Positions 24,023-41,362 of a stretch of 64,000 nt of DNA are shown piece by piece (within the stretch, counting starts at the first letter, position 1; the number at the start of each line of letters is the position of its first letter). Location: the NCBI RefSeq assembly GCF_001434145.1, contig NZ_AZED01000013.1, positions 168,742 through 232,741 of the forward strand. The letters run 5' to 3'. A program made the translations under genes and the position numbers. Below the pieces are notes generated by a model that was not told the DNA's origin, ran no database searches, and saw only the letters and a list, made by a program, of their open reading frames with translations. Origin of the DNA: Lentilactobacillus otakiensis DSM 19908 = JCM 15040 (GTDB taxonomy: Bacteria; Bacillota; Bacilli; Lactobacillales; Lactobacillaceae).

Positions 24023-25639
24023 TTACTTAACGTAAGCCTTACTAAAGTCATATTGTGGTGATGTTGTAAAGGCTTGAACGCCCTTAACAGATGAACGTAC
24101 CAATGCGGCTTGTCCTTGTTGATAAAGTGGAACAATTCCTTGGTCATTCATCAAAATCTTTTCAGCAGCAACCATATCGTTCCAACGAGCGGTTTCGTTG
24201 TTGGCATCAGTTGATTCAGACTTCTTGATCAAAGCATCGTATTGTTTGTTATTCCACTTACCATCATTGTAAGAGTTGCTTGATGTCATCAAGTCCAAGA
24301 AGTTACTTGGATCTGGGTAATCGGCAATCCATGCTGATGTAACCAAATCAAATTGTTGATCTTCTGAACGAGTCAATTTTGACTTAAATGGAATACTTTG
24401 AACGGTAATCTTCAAGCCAGGCAATTTTTCAAGTTGACTTTGAATAAATTCGCTTGCCCGCTTGCTGTCATCGTCATCTGAACCCAATAGGCTTAAGCTC
24501 AATGACTTCTTGCCCTCTTGTTTCAAACCTTTTGCGAATAAGGTCTTAGCTTCTTTCAAATCATAGTCGGTACCATCCTTGACGTAAGCTTGGGAAGCAA
24601 AGTCTTTGCCGTTATGCTTAGCCATGCTTGCAGGAACAAATCCCTTAGGTGCGATATCCCCACCCTGCATAACTTTATTAACCATTTGTTTCTTGTCAAT
24701 CGAAAGTGCCATCGCTTTACGAATGTTAACATTTCTTAAAGCCTTGATCTTCTTTTGGTTGAATTCCAAGTAAGAAGTTGATGCTTGTGGGAACACCGTG
24801 TATGCTTTGTTCTTCTTATTGTTGGCAGCTAGAGTACCACTTAAGGTGGTGTAATCAAGCTTGTTGCTGTTGAAACTGTTCAAACCAGTTGATGGTGTCT
24901 TAACTGCTTGGAAGTTCACAGTGTCAACCTTGACCTTTTTAGCATCCCAGTACTTGGTGTTCTTAACAAGTTTCCAAGTATCGTTGGTACCGTTCCATCC
25001 CTTAAGAATGAATGGTCCATTATAGCTGTTCTTTGTGGAATTAGTTCCAAAACCACTACCATACTTGGCAACTGTCTTAGGATTCTGTGGGAAGAATTCT
25101 GGCTGGGTAACCATGTACTTAAAGTAACTTTGTGGCTTTACCAAACTAACAACGAACTTGTAGTTACCTTCGGCTTTAACACCTAATTTTGAAGGTGACA
25201 TCTTACCGGCGTTAATCTTGGCTGCATTCTTAATGTTGGCAAATATGTATGCATATTGTGAAGCCGTCTTTGGCTTAACAGTTCTTTGCCATGAGAATAC
25301 GAAGTCTTTAGCGGTAACAGCAGAGCCATCGTTCCACTTAGAATGACGTAGATTAAATGTCCATGTTAAACCATCTTTTGAGACGTTATAACTCTTGGCA
25401 ACACCTGGGTCGACTTTGTTGTCCTTAGCCATACGAAGAAGACCTTCGTTAGTACCATTGGCAACTTGAGCTGAATACAAATCAATCATCTTTGAAGTAT
25501 CCATAGTTGAAATTGCGGCTGGCGTGCTCCAATTGATCTCCTGTTTCTTTGATTGTGATGACTTACTACCACACCCTGCAAGGATAAGTACTGATACGAG
25601 TGCTACCCCACCGAGCTTCGCTAATGAATTAATTTTCAT
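24023..25639 (-). CDS. oppA: Oligopeptide-binding lipoprotein OppA
   Basis: A 538-residue extracellular peptide-binding lipoprotein: signal MKINSLAKLGGVALVSVLILAGCGS with lipobox and Cys23. SBP_bac_5 landmarks follow: INWSTPAAISTMD, NEGLLRM, YNVSKDGLTWTFNLR, WNDGSAVTAKDFVFSWQRT, and late DYPDPSNFLD. It captures oligopeptides and hands them to OppBC. It is the first gene of the opp operon, behind its own promoter at 25691-25719. The second OppA gene upstream is clearly paralogous. Confidence 0.95.
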   Translation of the reverse strand: MKINSLAKLGGVALVSVLILAGCGSKSSQSKKQEINWSTPAAISTMDTSKMIDLYSAQVANGTNEGLLRMAKDNKVDPGVAKSYNVSKDGLTWTFNLRHSKWNDGSAVTAKDFVFSWQRTVKPKTASQYAYIFANIKNAAKINAGKMSPSKLGVKAEGNYKFVVSLVKPQSYFKYMVTQPEFFPQNPKTVAKYGSGFGTNSTKNSYNGPFILKGWNGTNDTWKLVKNTKYWDAKKVKVDTVNFQAVKTPSTGLNSFNSNKLDYTTLSGTLAANNKKNKAYTVFPQASTSYLEFNQKKIKALRNVNIRKAMALSIDKKQMVNKVMQGGDIAPKGFVPASMAKHNGKDFASQAYVKDGTDYDLKEAKTLFAKGLKQEGKKSLSLSLLGSDDDDSKRASEFIQSQLEKLPGLKITVQSIPFKSKLTRSEDQQFDLVTSAWIADYPDPSNFLDLMTSSNSYNDGKWNNKQYDALIKKSESTDANNETARWNDMVAAEKILMNDQGIVPLYQQGQAALVRSSVKGVQAFTTSPQYDFSKAYVK

Positions 25640-26100: not shown

Positions 26101-27723
26101 TTATTTAACAGAGATCTTGCTCCAATCCCACTGTGGTGCAGTTGGGAAGAATTGAACGCCTTGAATCTTTGGCTTCATCAATGTTGAAATTGCGGGTTGA
26201 TACAATGGCACAATTCCTTGATCATTCATCAAGATCTTTTCAGCCTGAACCATGTCGTTCCAACGAGCGTTTTCATTGGCAGCATCGACACCTTCCGACT
26301 TCTTAACTAAAGCATCGTATTGCGCATTGCTCCATTTACCATTGTTGTATGCATTCTTGGAAGTCAAGATATCCAAGAAGTTGCTTGGATCTGGGTAGTC
26401 AGCGTTCCATGCAGTGATAACCAAATCAAATTGACCACTGGCTGAACGGGCAAGACGTGTCTTATAAGGAACGTTTTGGTTCGTGATCTTCACACCAGGC
26501 AACTTAGTCAACTGACTTTGAACAAATTCAGTTGAACGCTTAGCCACATCGGTATCGTCTGAAAGCAAGGTCAAGTTAACCGACTTCTTGCCAGTTTCCT
26601 TCAAACCTTTGGCCCAGTATTTCTTGGCTTCAGCCAAATTGTAATCAACCGCGCTCTTAACGTATGATTGATCGGCAAAGTCCTTACCATTGTGTTGTGA
26701 CATGTCGTCGGCAACAAATCCCTTAGGTGCCTGTGAACCGTCAGCAAGCACTTTGTTGGCAAGTTGTTTCTTATCAATTGCCAATGAGAAGGCCTTACGA
26801 AGGTTCTTATTCTTAAACATTGGGAATTTCTTTTCGTTCATTTCCAAGTAATAGATAGATGCTTGCTTGTATACATGGTAGTTCTTGTCATTCTTGTATT
26901 GCTTAACTTGGGTGCCACTCAACGTCGTGAAGTCCAGCTTGCCACTTTGGTAACCATTCAAAGCAGTGTTTGGATCCTTGATTGCTTGAATGTTTAAAGT
27001 GTCGAGCTTAATTGACTTGGCATTCCAGTACTTAGGGTTCTTAACCAATTTCCAATTATCGTTGGTACCGTTCCAACCCTTCAATACAAATGGACCGTTG
27101 TAACCATTCTTTTGTGCGTTGGTTCCATATGCTGAACCATACTTCTTAACAACAGACGTTTCTTCTGGGAAATAATAACTTTGAGAAACCATGTACTTGA
27201 AGTAACTTTGTGGCTTGATCAAATGGACAACCAGTTTGTAGTTGCCCTCGGCTTTAACACCCAGCTTTGAAAGAGCCATCTTACCGGCATTAATTTTTTC
27301 AGCATTTTCGATGTTATTGAAAATGTATGAATACTGTGATGCCGTTTTTGGATTAACTGTTCGTTGCCAAGAGTTGACAAAGTCGCTGGCAACAACCGGC
27401 TTGCCATCATTCCATTTAGAATGACGCAAATTGAAGGTCCATGTCTTGCCATCCTTTGAAACCGTGTAATTTTTGGCAACTCCGGGAACAACTGAGTTAT
27501 TCTTGGACATTCTCAAAAGTCCTTCATTAGTTGCGTTGATGTTTTGACTGGAAATCAAATCAGTCATTTTTGAAGCATCCATAGTGTTGATGTTTGCGGC
27601 CACCATCCAGTTGGCAGTCTGCTTCTTAGCACCTGAATCAGAAGATTTGCTACCGCAACCTGCCAGTACAAGTGCGGCGAGTAAGCCAACTCCTCCGATT
27701 TTTAATAGCGATTTAGTCCTCAT
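26101..27723 (-). CDS. Second oligopeptide-binding lipoprotein (OppA paralogue)
   Basis: A 540-residue lipoprotein (signal MRTKSLLKIGGVGLLAALVLAGCGS, lipobox Cys23) highly similar to OppA along its whole length: same WNDGKPVVASDFVNSWQRT, KGWNGTND, and DYPDPSNFLD segments. It forms a single-gene unit with its own promoter and terminator, and has no permease or ATPase of its own, so it most likely feeds peptides to the adjacent OppBCDF with a different specificity. A tandem duplication including the promoter is the simplest origin. Confidence 0.93.
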   Translation of the reverse strand: MRTKSLLKIGGVGLLAALVLAGCGSKSSDSGAKKQTANWMVAANINTMDASKMTDLISSQNINATNEGLLRMSKNNSVVPGVAKNYTVSKDGKTWTFNLRHSKWNDGKPVVASDFVNSWQRTVNPKTASQYSYIFNNIENAEKINAGKMALSKLGVKAEGNYKLVVHLIKPQSYFKYMVSQSYYFPEETSVVKKYGSAYGTNAQKNGYNGPFVLKGWNGTNDNWKLVKNPKYWNAKSIKLDTLNIQAIKDPNTALNGYQSGKLDFTTLSGTQVKQYKNDKNYHVYKQASIYYLEMNEKKFPMFKNKNLRKAFSLAIDKKQLANKVLADGSQAPKGFVADDMSQHNGKDFADQSYVKSAVDYNLAEAKKYWAKGLKETGKKSVNLTLLSDDTDVAKRSTEFVQSQLTKLPGVKITNQNVPYKTRLARSASGQFDLVITAWNADYPDPSNFLDILTSKNAYNNGKWSNAQYDALVKKSEGVDAANENARWNDMVQAEKILMNDQGIVPLYQPAISTLMKPKIQGVQFFPTAPQWDWSKISVK

Positions 27724-31796: not shown

Positions 31797-32783
31797 CTAG
31801 ACACTTTCACGTTCCACAATTTTGATCGGTGTATACATCGAATAAAAGTCCTTAAACGACTCGCTGACCAACATATCCATCCCTTTGGCGCCCATTTCAA
31901 AGAAAGATTGGGTCAGACTCGTCAGCTTCGGTCGGACAATGTCACATAACTGAGTGCCATCAACTGTGAGGATGGCTAATCTATCAGGTACTTTCATTCC
32001 ATAATTCATTGCCTGATTCAAAACGCCAATCCCTGCCAAATCACTGGAAGCAATTATCGCCGTAAGTTCCGTTTGCTTACCAAACTTTTTCATGGCATTG
32101 ACCCCATCCATGTATCTGAAATGACCATGTTGTACCCAATCGTCGTTGAATTCCAGTTGATTATCACGCATGGCATCCCGATAGCCTTCATATCAGAGGT
32201 TACCGACAAATGAGTGCAGGTCTGTGGCAACGAAGCCGATTTTGCGATGGCCCTTGCTAATTAAATACTTGGTGGCCTTGTAGCCAATGTCAAAATCATT
32301 TGAAGAAATGAATGGGAATTCGGTGTTTTTCAATGTCATTGAGAGAAACAGAAACGGAATATTCGCACTTTCCAATAAATCGTCGTTTTCCGGATCCAGA
32401 TCAATCGCAACCAATAAAATTCCCATCACCGATCTTTCAATCACGGTTTGAATTGCTTTTGCCTGGACTGCTGCATCCCCCTCACCTGCATAGATAATCA
32501 TGACACTTAGATTGCGGGCTTGAGCCTGTTGCTGAATACCTCTTAAAATCTGGTCAGAAAAGTTGGTTTCTGTTGAGCTGACCAGCACCGCAATCACATT
32601 GCTGTGCTGGGTAACCAATTCAACGGCATTTTGATTTCGCTGGTAACCCAATTTTTTAGCAACTTCACGGACTTTTTTGGCAGTCTTCTCTGAATAGAAT
32701 TCTTTTTGATTGGATAGGACTCTTGAGACTGTCGCCGGTGAAACACCTGAAATTCTGGCAATATCTTTAATTGTTGCAGCCAT
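31797..32783 (-). pseudogene. LacI family regulator interrupted by in-frame TGA
   Basis: Read through one stop, this is a normal 328-codon LacI/GalR repressor: HTH at 1-60 (ATIKDIARISGVSPATVSRVLSNQ), periplasmic-binding-like sensor to the end (LAILTVDGTQLCDIVRPKLTSL, then PIKIVERESV). Codon 197 is TGA (32195-32193) where the family usually has a basic residue (NL-R-YEGYRDAM); CGA to TGA would explain it. The frame is the same on both sides, so this is a point nonsense change and not a frameshift. The truncated 196-residue product would keep the DNA-binding domain but lose half the sensor. It is divergent from the alpha-glucosidase gene, its likely target. Confidence 0.85.
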
Positions 32784-32856: not shown

Positions 32857-32884
32857 TTTACTCAAACGTTTGTGATACGATAAT
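32857..32884 (+). promoter_or_regulatory. Alpha-glucosidase promoter with LacI-type operator
   Basis: -35 TTTACT (32857-32862), -10 GATAAT (32879-32884), 16-bp spacer. The palindrome CAAACGTTTG (32863-32872) with the central CG typical of LacI-family sites starts directly after -35. Binding here would block RNA polymerase. Confidence 0.65.
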
Positions 32885-32961
32885 ACGGGGATTGAAAACC
32901 CACCTCACAGATGTTAATATCAACGAAAAGGCCCACTATACTATTGGAGGTACATATACTT

Positions 32962-34629
32962 ATGACACACAAATGGTGGCAAAACGCGGTTGTTTATCAA
33001 ATTTACCCACAAAGCTTTCAAGACAGTAACCATGACGGAATCGGTGACCTTCCCGGTATCGTTAGTCGACTTCCCTACCTGCAAAAATTAGGTGTTGACG
33101 TCTTGTGGCTCAACCCAATCTATGATTCACCGTTAAAAGATAACGGTTATGACATTGCCGACTATGAAAAAATTCTACCAACTTACGGCTCAATGGCTGA
33201 TTTCGACAAGATGCTTCAAGAGATTCACACTCATCATATGAAACTCTTAATGGACTTGGTCGTTAATCATACTTCAGCCCAACATCGCTGGTTCCAAGAA
33301 AGCAAGCAATCAAAAGACAACAAATATGCCAATTACTACATTTGGCGCGATCCGGTTGATGGACACGCACCCAACAACTGGAACGCTGCATTCGGTGGAC
33401 CAGCTTGGACCTATGTGCCGGAACGTGGCCAATACTATCTTCATTTATTTGCGCCAGGCCAACCGGATTTAAATTGGGAAAATCCGCAAGTCCGTGAATC
33501 CGTTTGGAACATCATGCGTTTTTGGCTGGATAAAGGTGTTGATGGTTTCAGAATGGACGTTATTAACCTTATTTCCAAGCCAGCTGGATTACCCGATGCA
33601 CCGGAGCCAGCCACTTATGGACTTGTTGAAAATTTCGTTGCCGACGGCCCTAAACTAAACGATTATTTGCATGAAATGAATGACAAGGTACTTTCCCACT
33701 ACAACGTCATGACAGTTGGGGAAATGCCTGGTTCAACACCAGAAGACGCGATTGCTTATACTGGTCTGAACAGCCACGAACTGAACATGGTTTTCCAATT
33801 CGAACATGTTCAGCTTGCAGGTAATTCCGACCCTCGTTTGGGTAAATGGAACGACACCCCAGTCAAGCTACCCGAACTCAAACAGGCACTGTCCCGTTGG
33901 CAGAAAGCACTTGACGGCAAAGGTTGGAACAGTCTCTATTGGAATAACCATGATCAACCACGGGCAGTATCGCGATTTGCCACAGATGATCCGAAGTATC
34001 GGGTTCGCACTGCCAAGATGCTCGGCACAACCCTTCACATGATGCAGGGCACCCCATTCGTCTATGAGGGTGAAGAACTGGGAATGACCAACGTGCACTA
34101 CACCAGTTTGGATCAATACGAAGACTTGGAAGTTTTCAATTCCTGGCATGAATTGGTGGATCAAGAAAAGTTGGTCGATCCACAAACAATGCTCAAATAC
34201 CTCAACAGTCGTTCACGTGATCACGCCAGAACACCTATGCAATGGGATAATAGCCAAAATGCCGGCTTTACAGATGCCAAGCCATGGTTCGCGTTGAATC
34301 CCAACTATCAAGATATCAACGCCAAAAAGGCCATTGCCGACAAACAATCGGTCTTCTACCATTATCAAAGATTGATTCAGTTACGTCATGAGTCTGATTT
34401 GATCAAATTTGGAACCTACGACGAAATTGACCCAGACGATGCCCAAGTATTCGCATATCGTCGTCACTATCAAGGTAAGATGCTCTTGGTCATCAGTAAC
34501 TTTACTGATCAAACTGTTCGTCGTGATTACAATCAAGCAAAATCTTCAGAACTGCTCATCAGTAATTACAACGATGATCAGGACACGGAACTGCGGCCTT
34601 ATGAAAGTAAAGTTTATCTATTTGAATAA
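32962..34629 (+). CDS. GH13 alpha-glucosidase (oligo-1,6-glucosidase type)
   Basis: A 555-residue cytoplasmic glycosidase that frees glucose from isomaltose or other alpha-glucosides. The (beta/alpha)8 barrel has nucleophile Asp199 (GFRMDVIN), acid/base Glu254 (VGEMPG) and Asp331 (NNHDQPR). Val200, next to the nucleophile, is the residue associated with alpha-1,6 preference in GH13 subfamily 31, as opposed to Thr in alpha-1,4 enzymes. GGAGG lies 10 nt before the ATG at 32962; an earlier in-frame start lacks an RBS. It is divergent from the broken LacI gene, with no sugar transporter next to it. Confidence 0.93.
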   Translation: MTHKWWQNAVVYQIYPQSFQDSNHDGIGDLPGIVSRLPYLQKLGVDVLWLNPIYDSPLKDNGYDIADYEKILPTYGSMADFDKMLQEIHTHHMKLLMDLVVNHTSAQHRWFQESKQSKDNKYANYYIWRDPVDGHAPNNWNAAFGGPAWTYVPERGQYYLHLFAPGQPDLNWENPQVRESVWNIMRFWLDKGVDGFRMDVINLISKPAGLPDAPEPATYGLVENFVADGPKLNDYLHEMNDKVLSHYNVMTVGEMPGSTPEDAIAYTGLNSHELNMVFQFEHVQLAGNSDPRLGKWNDTPVKLPELKQALSRWQKALDGKGWNSLYWNNHDQPRAVSRFATDDPKYRVRTAKMLGTTLHMMQGTPFVYEGEELGMTNVHYTSLDQYEDLEVFNSWHELVDQEKLVDPQTMLKYLNSRSRDHARTPMQWDNSQNAGFTDAKPWFALNPNYQDINAKKAIADKQSVFYHYQRLIQLRHESDLIKFGTYDEIDPDDAQVFAYRRHYQGKMLLVISNFTDQTVRRDYNQAKSSELLISNYNDDQDTELRPYESKVYLFE

Positions 34630-34669: not shown

Positions 34670-34729
34670 GTATCCCCAATAACCTTGGCGTTATAATTAA
34701 GGAAATTATTCAGTAAAGGAGGGGTGCCC

Positions 34730-35416
34730 ATGACCGCATACGTGTTATACCAACTAGAATGGATTTTAAGGCTGTTTGTGGCCGCCATATGCGGTGGTCT
34801 GGTCGGTTATGAGCGAAAGGTCCGATTGAAAACAGCCGGCATTAGAACACATATGCTGGTGGCAGTTGGATCGGCCCTGTTCATGATTATTTCCAAATAT
34901 GGTTTTTTTGATGTGATTAATCACGCTGATGTCAGTCTCGACCCTTCGCGGATTGCCTCACAAGTTGTAACTGGAATTGGGTTCATTGGCGCCGGAGCGA
35001 TTATCACTCGGAACCATAAGATTGATGGTTTGACGACCGCAGCCGGTTTGTGGGCTACTGCCGCCATCGGTCTAGCGATCGGAGCCAATATGTATGTCAT
35101 TGGGATTGCTGGAACGCTTTGTATTCTGGTGACCCAGACGATTGTCCGTCAAATCCGTGCATTTAAACGTTATCCCAACCGTTCACTGCTTCGCCTACAA
35201 GTTACCTTTCATGGGGAATTGGCGTCCATGGACGAGCTCCCAGATCGTCTGAGAGACATTGGCAGTGCGGATCTGAAGATGAGAATTCTCGCTTACAAAC
35301 CAGATTCATTTTCGTTGGAAGTCCGCGTAAAGTTGCGCCATAAGATGGATCCGGATGAGTTTATTCGCCAGATGAGTGATTTGGTGGATGTTCGGCGGAT
35401 TGAGGTGTTGGATTAA
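34730..35416 (+). CDS. MgtC/SapB family membrane protein
   Basis: A 228-residue protein with four or five N-terminal helices and the MgtC core: GGLVGYERKVRLKTAGIRTHMLVAVGSALF, then SQVVTGIGFIGAGAIIT and GLTTAAGLWATAAIGLAIG. A C-terminal cytoplasmic ACT-like domain (about 150-228) follows. Family members act in magnesium limitation and acid stress, in some cases by binding the F-ATPase; the role here is unknown. The ATG at 34730 has GGAGG 6 nt upstream. Confidence 0.9.
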   Translation: MTAYVLYQLEWILRLFVAAICGGLVGYERKVRLKTAGIRTHMLVAVGSALFMIISKYGFFDVINHADVSLDPSRIASQVVTGIGFIGAGAIITRNHKIDGLTTAAGLWATAAIGLAIGANMYVIGIAGTLCILVTQTIVRQIRAFKRYPNRSLLRLQVTFHGELASMDELPDRLRDIGSADLKMRILAYKPDSFSLEVRVKLRHKMDPDEFIRQMSDLVDVRRIEVLD

Positions 35417-39932: not shown

Positions 39933-40757
39933 TTACAGTTTCTTATAAGCCAGCATTGCCCGCAGCTTGAAGTCTTGCGGGGCTTCAATCACACCCGCAC
40001 GGCCAATCTGTTTATACGGTCCACCGACTAGGGTTACAGAGGCTAAATATAGTTTGACTTGAGTGAGATCGAGTGATTTCACGGACTGCAAGCCAACCCG
40101 CTTAATTTCACCCACCGGATAAATTTCGGCTTGGTTCAAACCACAATAAACGATCAGTGATGACCCCTGCTTTTTCATTTCAAAGTAAGGCATCAACACG
40201 CCCTTGCCAATCGCATAAACCGGCTTGCTGTTGACCTTCAGCAATTCAAAAATCTTGCGGTCATTCATGCCGTTATAATCAGCTTGGAACAACTGCTGCT
40301 GTTCCATTTGGGCAACTAACCGATCGATATTGGCCTGTTGAGTTGGACTGACTTCAATCTTGGCAGGTAGTAAATGCTGATCATCGAATAAACCATTGGC
40401 TGGAACATTTCGTTCCTCAGAAATCACCGTGGTGCCCATTTTGGATTCCACTTGTGTTTCCCGTGGGTGTTCCTGGATGTGCAGCGCTTTGGCAATCTTG
40501 GGTGAAATATCAAACCACGGCTGTTTCTTTGTGAAATAGTAGTAGAAGTTGCAGACGGTAAAGTACAGCAAAATAATTGCCACTAATAAGATTGGAATGC
40601 CTTTGGTAAACATCTGATTCTGCAGAAAACGGAAACTGATGTAGAACAGGTAAATATCGCCAAAGAAGCCCAAAACCGTGTATATCCGGCTTTTAAGGGT
40701 TACGTTGATGTTAAAGTAACCCAGGTAGTGGTTAACCATGTCCAAAAAACTAAACAT
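39933..40757 (-). CDS. Lactobacillaceae membrane protein of unknown function (DUF6681-like)
   Basis: A 274-residue protein with two predicted helices near the N terminus (TVLGFFGDIYLFYISFRFL and GIPILLVAIILLYFTVCNFYYYF) and a long cytoplasmic domain (about 85-274). It resembles an uncharacterised lactobacillar family that I recall as DUF6681, but I hold that loosely. Its ATG shares one base with the stop of the upstream gene (TAATG), so expression is coupled to that low-complexity protein. Confidence 0.7.
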   Translation of the reverse strand: MFSFLDMVNHYLGYFNINVTLKSRIYTVLGFFGDIYLFYISFRFLQNQMFTKGIPILLVAIILLYFTVCNFYYYFTKKQPWFDISPKIAKALHIQEHPRETQVESKMGTTVISEERNVPANGLFDDQHLLPAKIEVSPTQQANIDRLVAQMEQQQLFQADYNGMNDRKIFELLKVNSKPVYAIGKGVLMPYFEMKKQGSSLIVYCGLNQAEIYPVGEIKRVGLQSVKSLDLTQVKLYLASVTLVGGPYKQIGRAGVIEAPQDFKLRAMLAYKKL

Positions 40758-41362
40758 TAGTCAGTCCCCTCCCCTGTATCGCTAGTCGTTACGTCAGCGT
40801 TGGCGTCATTATTATTTTGGGTCGTCGTCCCGCCAGTTGTCCCAGTGGTCGTGTTGCCACTGCTACTGCTGGTTTGGGAATTTTGATTTGAATTATTATT
40901 ATTGGAATTATTGGTACTGCCACCAGTGGTTGTACCTTTATTGGTCGTAGTGCCCTTGTTCGTAGTGGTTCCTTTGTTGGTCGTTGTCCCATTGTTTGTA
41001 TTGGTATCCGTGTTGTTATCTGTATTATTGTCAGTCGTCTGATCATCAGATGAGCTGGCATTCTTTTCACTCTCAGCTTTTTCAGACGAAGCTTTGGCCG
41101 CAGAAGATTCTTCTGCCGCCTTTTTCTTTTCGGATTCTTCCTTTGCTTTTTCAGCTTTTTCTTTGGCATCAGAATCATCGGTCTTTTTCTTCTTACCGTA
41201 AATTGAGTCCGAAATCTTCTTTTGATTGGTCGTTTGAGTGGTCCTAGGGGTTCCCTCGTTGGTGGACGTCACATTGTTGACCACAACGTTGGTAGCGCCG
41301 AGTGCCAAAGAAATTGAGAGAATGGCAAATGGCGTGATTAATGGTGGAATTCTATTATCCAT
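40757..41362 (-). CDS. Membrane-anchored low-complexity Ser/Thr/Asn-rich protein
   Basis: A 201-residue protein: one N-terminal helix (PPLITPFAILSISLALGATNVVV), a charged Lys/Glu/Ser-rich segment (about 60-100, coiled-coil-like KEKAEKAKEESEKKK), then a Thr/Asn/Gly/Ser-rich tail with GTTTNK repeats. No catalytic domain is visible. It probably projects from the membrane as a flexible spacer. It is coupled to the following DUF6681-like gene by a one-base overlap, so the two may form a complex. Confidence 0.75.
   Translation of the reverse strand: MDNRIPPLITPFAILSISLALGATNVVVNNVTSTNEGTPRTTQTTNQKKISDSIYGKKKKTDDSDAKEKAEKAKEESEKKKAAEESSAAKASSEKAESEKNASSSDDQTTDNNTDNNTDTNTNNGTTTNKGTTTNKGTTTNKGTTTGGSTNNSNNNNSNQNSQTSSSSGNTTTGTTGGTTTQNNNDANADVTTSDTGEGTD
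40926..40991 (-). repeat. 18-bp tandem repeat coding GTTTNK
   Basis: Three full 18-nt units and a partial fourth encode GTTTNK three times then GTTT. The DNA copies differ at synonymous positions, so the protein repeat is kept by selection or is old. Unit length is a multiple of three, so copy changes would not shift frame. Confidence 0.75.

Follow-up and report, generated by a model that had tools for sequence, protein, structure and literature searches.

The LacI/GalR-family repressor gene that adjoins an oligo-1,6-glucosidase gene in Lentilactobacillus otakiensis is interrupted by a single in-frame stop codon. We consider it probable that this break is a recent loss of the repressor, independent of a second break in the orthologous gene of L. 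sunkii, and that the glucosidase has been left without sugar-specific control. The window, that is, the whole 64,000-nucleotide stretch of DNA analysed here, holds the gene on its minus strand as follows.

31797-32783, minus strand: interrupted LacI/GalR-family repressor gene (malR-like paralogue), 328 codons, assigned from Pfam matches of the read-through protein and from Lentilactobacillus orthologues
32193-32195, minus strand: in-frame TGA, codon 197 (TCA on the plus strand, TGA on the coding strand)
32193-32783, minus strand: surviving N-terminal frame, 196 aa, with the HTH, the hinge, the first half of the N-subdomain and the start of the C-subdomain
31797-32171, minus strand: downstream frame from an ATG (codon 205), 124 aa, without the HTH

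The interrupted gene and its codon 197

A preliminary description of this DNA had reported a 328-codon LacI gene with one TGA at codon 197 (32193-32195), and our analysis confirmed this and supplied the strand, minus, which had been left unstated. Beyond this TGA, no further stop or frameshift was found in the gene (32783 to 31797), and it is the TGA that deprives the gene of the uninterrupted frame of a complete LacI/GalR repressor. The accompanying claim that both halves retain family sequence also held, since Pfam matches extend over the whole read-through protein, with PF00356 (LacI HTH) at E 2e-15 (56.6 bits against a cut-off of 27) and with PF00532 (Peripla_BP_1, residues 62-272) and PF13377 (Peripla_BP_3, residues 172-309) covering a periplasmic-binding-protein-like core that was scored at full length on the read-through protein only. 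In addition, the read-through protein aligns end to end with the intact genes of other Lentilactobacillus. Two adjacent halves of full homology, in one frame and collinear with the orthologues, indicate that the interrupted gene is not a chance arrangement. The 124-aa downstream frame is a possible restart product, which would probably not be functional. Under the NCBIfam equivalog cut-offs the repressor reached no named equivalog (RbsR, 193 of 382 bits; CcpA, 179 of 442 bits), and the closest solved structure, 3clk, is titled only as a transcription regulator.

The stop occupies the position of a conserved arginine. Arginine stands at position 197 in 11 of the 11 other aligned Lentilactobacillus sequences, which come from 10 genomes (L. 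kefiri, L. sunkii, G004, G005, G006 with two copies, G009, G011, G014, G016 and G017), and in an alignment of the E. coli MG1655 record with 11 relatives residue 197 of the L. otakiensis protein falls on R197 of E. coli LacI. The latter residue forms a hydrogen bond to the inducer, and its substitution gives non-inducible repressors (PMC4632034, PMC12671198). Among the relatives with codons printed, codon 197 reads CGG, CGA or AGG. A single transition converts CGA to TGA, and the earlier suggestion that CGA would restore the frame is supported by these relatives as a CGA-to-TGA type of change at a conserved arginine codon.

Age of the lesion and a second break in L. sunkii

The preliminary description had also offered a recent change as one reading of the stop, and this was borne out by a codon model with branch classes, run with our own script on six species, with stop codons treated as missing data and on the repressor's own tree, as a stable tree was not obtained from the flanking genes. 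The overall omega of the repressor was 0.058. Omega on the L. otakiensis branch was 0.074 against a background of 0.061, a difference that was not significant, and the L. otakiensis and L. sunkii branches together gave 0.064 against 0.056 elsewhere (p = 0.56). When the end of each branch was allowed to evolve neutrally, the best-fitting neutral fraction was 2-3% for L. otakiensis, with an approximate 95% upper limit of ~13%, and 0% for L. sunkii, with an upper limit near 5%; synonymous change is near saturation, so that all of these branch omega and neutral-fraction estimates are rough. These values support the view that the repressor was strongly constrained until late on the L. otakiensis branch and that the lesion is recent. 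An old pseudogene under relaxed constraint was rejected, as the branch test revealed no elevation of omega.

The best match to the repressor in other genomes, at 90% amino acid identity, is that of the nearest sequenced relative, L. sunkii DSM 19904 (G022:C12:25744-26727). It carries arginine at position 197, yet has TAA at codon 70, where the relatives have serine (TCA or TCG), and this TAA appears in two copies of the one assembly (L002 and L006). Judged from one assembly per species, the comparison shows the repressor to have been broken independently in L. sunkii by a different mutation. Internal stops are absent from the repressor of L. kefiri and of the close species G009, G006 and G005, and when 24 genomes were searched across the genus, a close homologue was found in 16, with internal stops in L. 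otakiensis and L. sunkii only.

To place these stops against their surroundings, the L. otakiensis window was compared with ~60 kb each from L. sunkii and L. kefiri. Among ~34 shared genes, over roughly 55 kb of shared order, the repressor was the sole gene with a mid-gene stop in L. otakiensis or L. sunkii; the remaining flags reflected genes that differ at their starts or ends, or a repeat-rich protein. Generally poor assembly or genome-wide decay was rejected for this region on the same grounds. Across six genomes, 3 of 61 LacI-type HTH genes were truncated, namely the L. otakiensis repressor and its orthologue in L. sunkii, with short open frames of 203 and 69, and a separate gene in G005, with one of 188, so that two of the three form the orthologue pair. 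The odds of two single hits falling on one gene by coincidence are roughly 1 in 34 from the shared-gene count and about 1 in 15 from the L. sunkii LacI genes; coincidence is thus unlikely, with a chance that is not negligible.

Alternative readings of the stop

A base-call error, or a mutation confined to the sequenced culture line of a species that normally has an intact repressor, seems unlikely to us. The lesion is one base in a draft assembly of 21 contigs, and the gene is otherwise strongly constrained, as would be expected if it were intact in nature. Random errors, however, would not favour one gene, and the same gene is independently stopped in L. sunkii while no other gene of the window region is interrupted. 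The N-terminal piece of 196 residues might alternatively persist as a constitutive, sugar-blind DNA-binding protein, a reading that we regard as highly improbable and that the preliminary description had raised for the HTH half. In the LacI family, the chain returns from the C-subdomain to complete the N-subdomain. The piece has an intact HTH and hinge, but it ends inside the C-subdomain and would lack both this return segment and most of the dimer interface, which, judged from family architecture, argues against continued DNA binding. Moreover, the stop at codon 70 in L. sunkii leaves little beyond the headpiece and gives no sign of selection for a mini-repressor.

Read-through of the TGA, whether by a suppressor tRNA, recoding or leaky insertion of tryptophan, would supply some full-length repressor, and had likewise been put forward earlier. 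UGA is the leakiest of the stop codons, and the retention of full family sequence in both halves is what read-through would predict. Nevertheless, the anticodon UCA is missing from all 51 tRNA genes that were read in the draft genome (99.99% complete; two further partial tRNA matches), and SelA was not found in the same draft, so the suggestion gained no support. The L. sunkii stop differs in codon and place, which argues against a conserved recoding site, and tryptophan at the inducer-binding arginine would probably yield a non-inducible repressor. We regard read-through as extremely improbable, and recent nonsense loss of the repressor as the explanation that best fits the locus.

The operator region, the glucosidase and the lost transporter

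Upstream of the repressor, the window holds the glucosidase gene and the region through which it would be controlled.

32857-32884, plus strand: promoter-like TTTACT-16-GATAAT, with the candidate operator in its spacer; consensus match only
32863-32872, no strand assigned: CAAACGTTTG palindrome with central CG, candidate operator, from conservation and the CcpA-like LacI operator consensus
32892-32920, plus strand: second promoter-like element, TTGAAA-17-TAATAT; consensus match only
32921-32961, plus strand: approximate junction of the missing transporter gene (about 1.4 kb in relatives), from comparison with relatives
32962-34629, plus strand: intact oligo-1,6-glucosidase-type GH13 gene (malL/dexB type), 555 aa, from Pfam PF00128 and PDB 1uok

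The palindrome and part of its flank are kept upstream of orthologous lacI genes in ten further Lentilactobacillus genomes, and the sequence agrees with the kind of operator known for CcpA-like LacI regulators (PMC2329647). As is characteristic of the LacI/GalR family, this palindromic, central-CG candidate operator lies near the promoter that it would regulate, and its position within the spacer of a promoter-like element facing the glucosidase is the geometry expected for repression. The -10 region of the second promoter-like element resembles one that precedes the transporter gene in G009 and G005. A wider regulon of the repressor was rejected: the sole other near match to the operator (C1:133085, one mismatch) sits between an alcohol dehydrogenase gene and a fructokinase gene, and a reversed control pattern gave as many matches.

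The glucosidase has its best PDB match in the oligo-1,6-glucosidase 1uok (E 1e-202), with full-length coverage of residues 2-552, and the codon model gave an omega of 0.031, indicating strong constraint. In G009, G005 and G011 the gene order is repressor, operator with cre-like sites, GPH/MFS-type transporter and oligo-1,6-glucosidase, and the same order of repressor, transporter and glucosidase is found in G004, G014 and G017, as judged by spacing and homology. The transporter is missing in L. otakiensis, L. sunkii and L. kefiri, where the glucosidase directly follows the promoter region with the candidate operator. This comparison of gene order shows the locus to be the remnant of a cluster, with a transporter loss in the three-species clade that is older than the repressor break. 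A related transporter (59% identity) is encoded elsewhere in the L. otakiensis genome together with a maltose-phosphorylase-type GH65 gene, and another LacI-type gene lies ~8 kb from it on the same contig; with this transporter present, the substrate of the glucosidase may still enter the cell.

The locus is decaying elsewhere in the clade too (G005 and G006). The glucosidase orthologue of G005 (L097 6370-8089) is spread over three frames by two apparent frameshifts, which may be draft error, while its transporter and repressor are intact. At the G006 locus (L096 6939-10842) the transporter and glucosidase are absent, a split quinone oxidoreductase gene lies alongside, and the repressor runs directly into an IS30-type transposase gene at its 3' end, with its last ten codons replaced. 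A second, full cluster is present elsewhere in the G006 genome.

We propose that the clade formed by L. otakiensis, L. sunkii and L. kefiri had already lost the transporter belonging to this cluster when a single-base nonsense change at the codon of the inducer-binding arginine (R197) inactivated the malR-like repressor. The 196-residue product, devoid of most of the C-subdomain and of the segment that completes the N-subdomain, would form no stable dimer and exert no repression. The adjoining oligo-1,6-glucosidase, behind a promoter with the repressor's candidate operator, would then be expressed without sugar-specific control, with CcpA as the likely remaining control. The glucosidase is predicted to be derepressed or constitutive, and as the gene is intact and constrained, constitutive expression is the likely outcome.

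The arrangement resembles that of MalR of Lactobacillus plantarum and Streptococcus pneumoniae, CcpA-like LacI/GalR sugar repressors that likewise combine an HTH with a periplasmic-binding-protein core. MalR-type repressor genes are also divergent from an alpha-glucosidase gene and have a palindromic CcpA-like operator of the same kind (PMC2329647). L. otakiensis departs from those systems in its interrupted coding frame and in the absence of the sugar transporter found alongside the repressor in relatives. As in nonsense or loss-of-function mutants of lacI, a single-base stop in the repressor core is expected to make the target constitutive; unlike those mutants, the present case is natural, in a food-associated Lentilactobacillus, falls on the codon of an inducer-contact arginine and has a counterpart in a sister species, where a different mutation breaks the gene. 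The glucosidase shares full-length homology with 1uok, DexB and MalL of the GH13 oligo-1,6-glucosidases and dextran glucosidases; unlike in their systems, it follows the candidate operator on its own, with no transporter gene beside it.

Losing a sugar repressor to a nonsense mutation is in itself ordinary. What the locus adds is a readable order of events, in which the transporter was lost first, the enzyme was kept and the repressor was broken twice by different stops, making it a small, testable case of sugar operon decay. Sunki pickle is the source from which both L. otakiensis and L. sunkii were described, and this common origin would make the parallel loss of the repressor ecologically suggestive. 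We put forward, tentatively and as a possibility that we do not favour, that once the transporter was gone repressor loss became advantageous or neutral and was repeated within the clade, leaving a retained glucosidase under constitutive expression; such repeated repressor loss would be a second, foreseeable stage in the decay of the operon. A literature search found nothing direct on repressor loss in these species or on their maltose regulation. In practice, the strain should not carry an annotation of inducible control over this glucosidase.

Three further features of the window were noted. Most relatives have the mgtC-like gene that comes after the glucosidase (34724-35416), but no orthologue turned up in the 60 kb of L. 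sunkii sequence that was covered. The protein encoded at 40757-41362 has a conserved N-terminus and a low-complexity tail rich in Ser, Thr and Asn that diverges strongly among L. otakiensis, L. sunkii and L. kefiri. Finally, two similar genes for OppA-type peptide-binding lipoproteins are arranged in tandem at 24023-25639 and 26101-27723.
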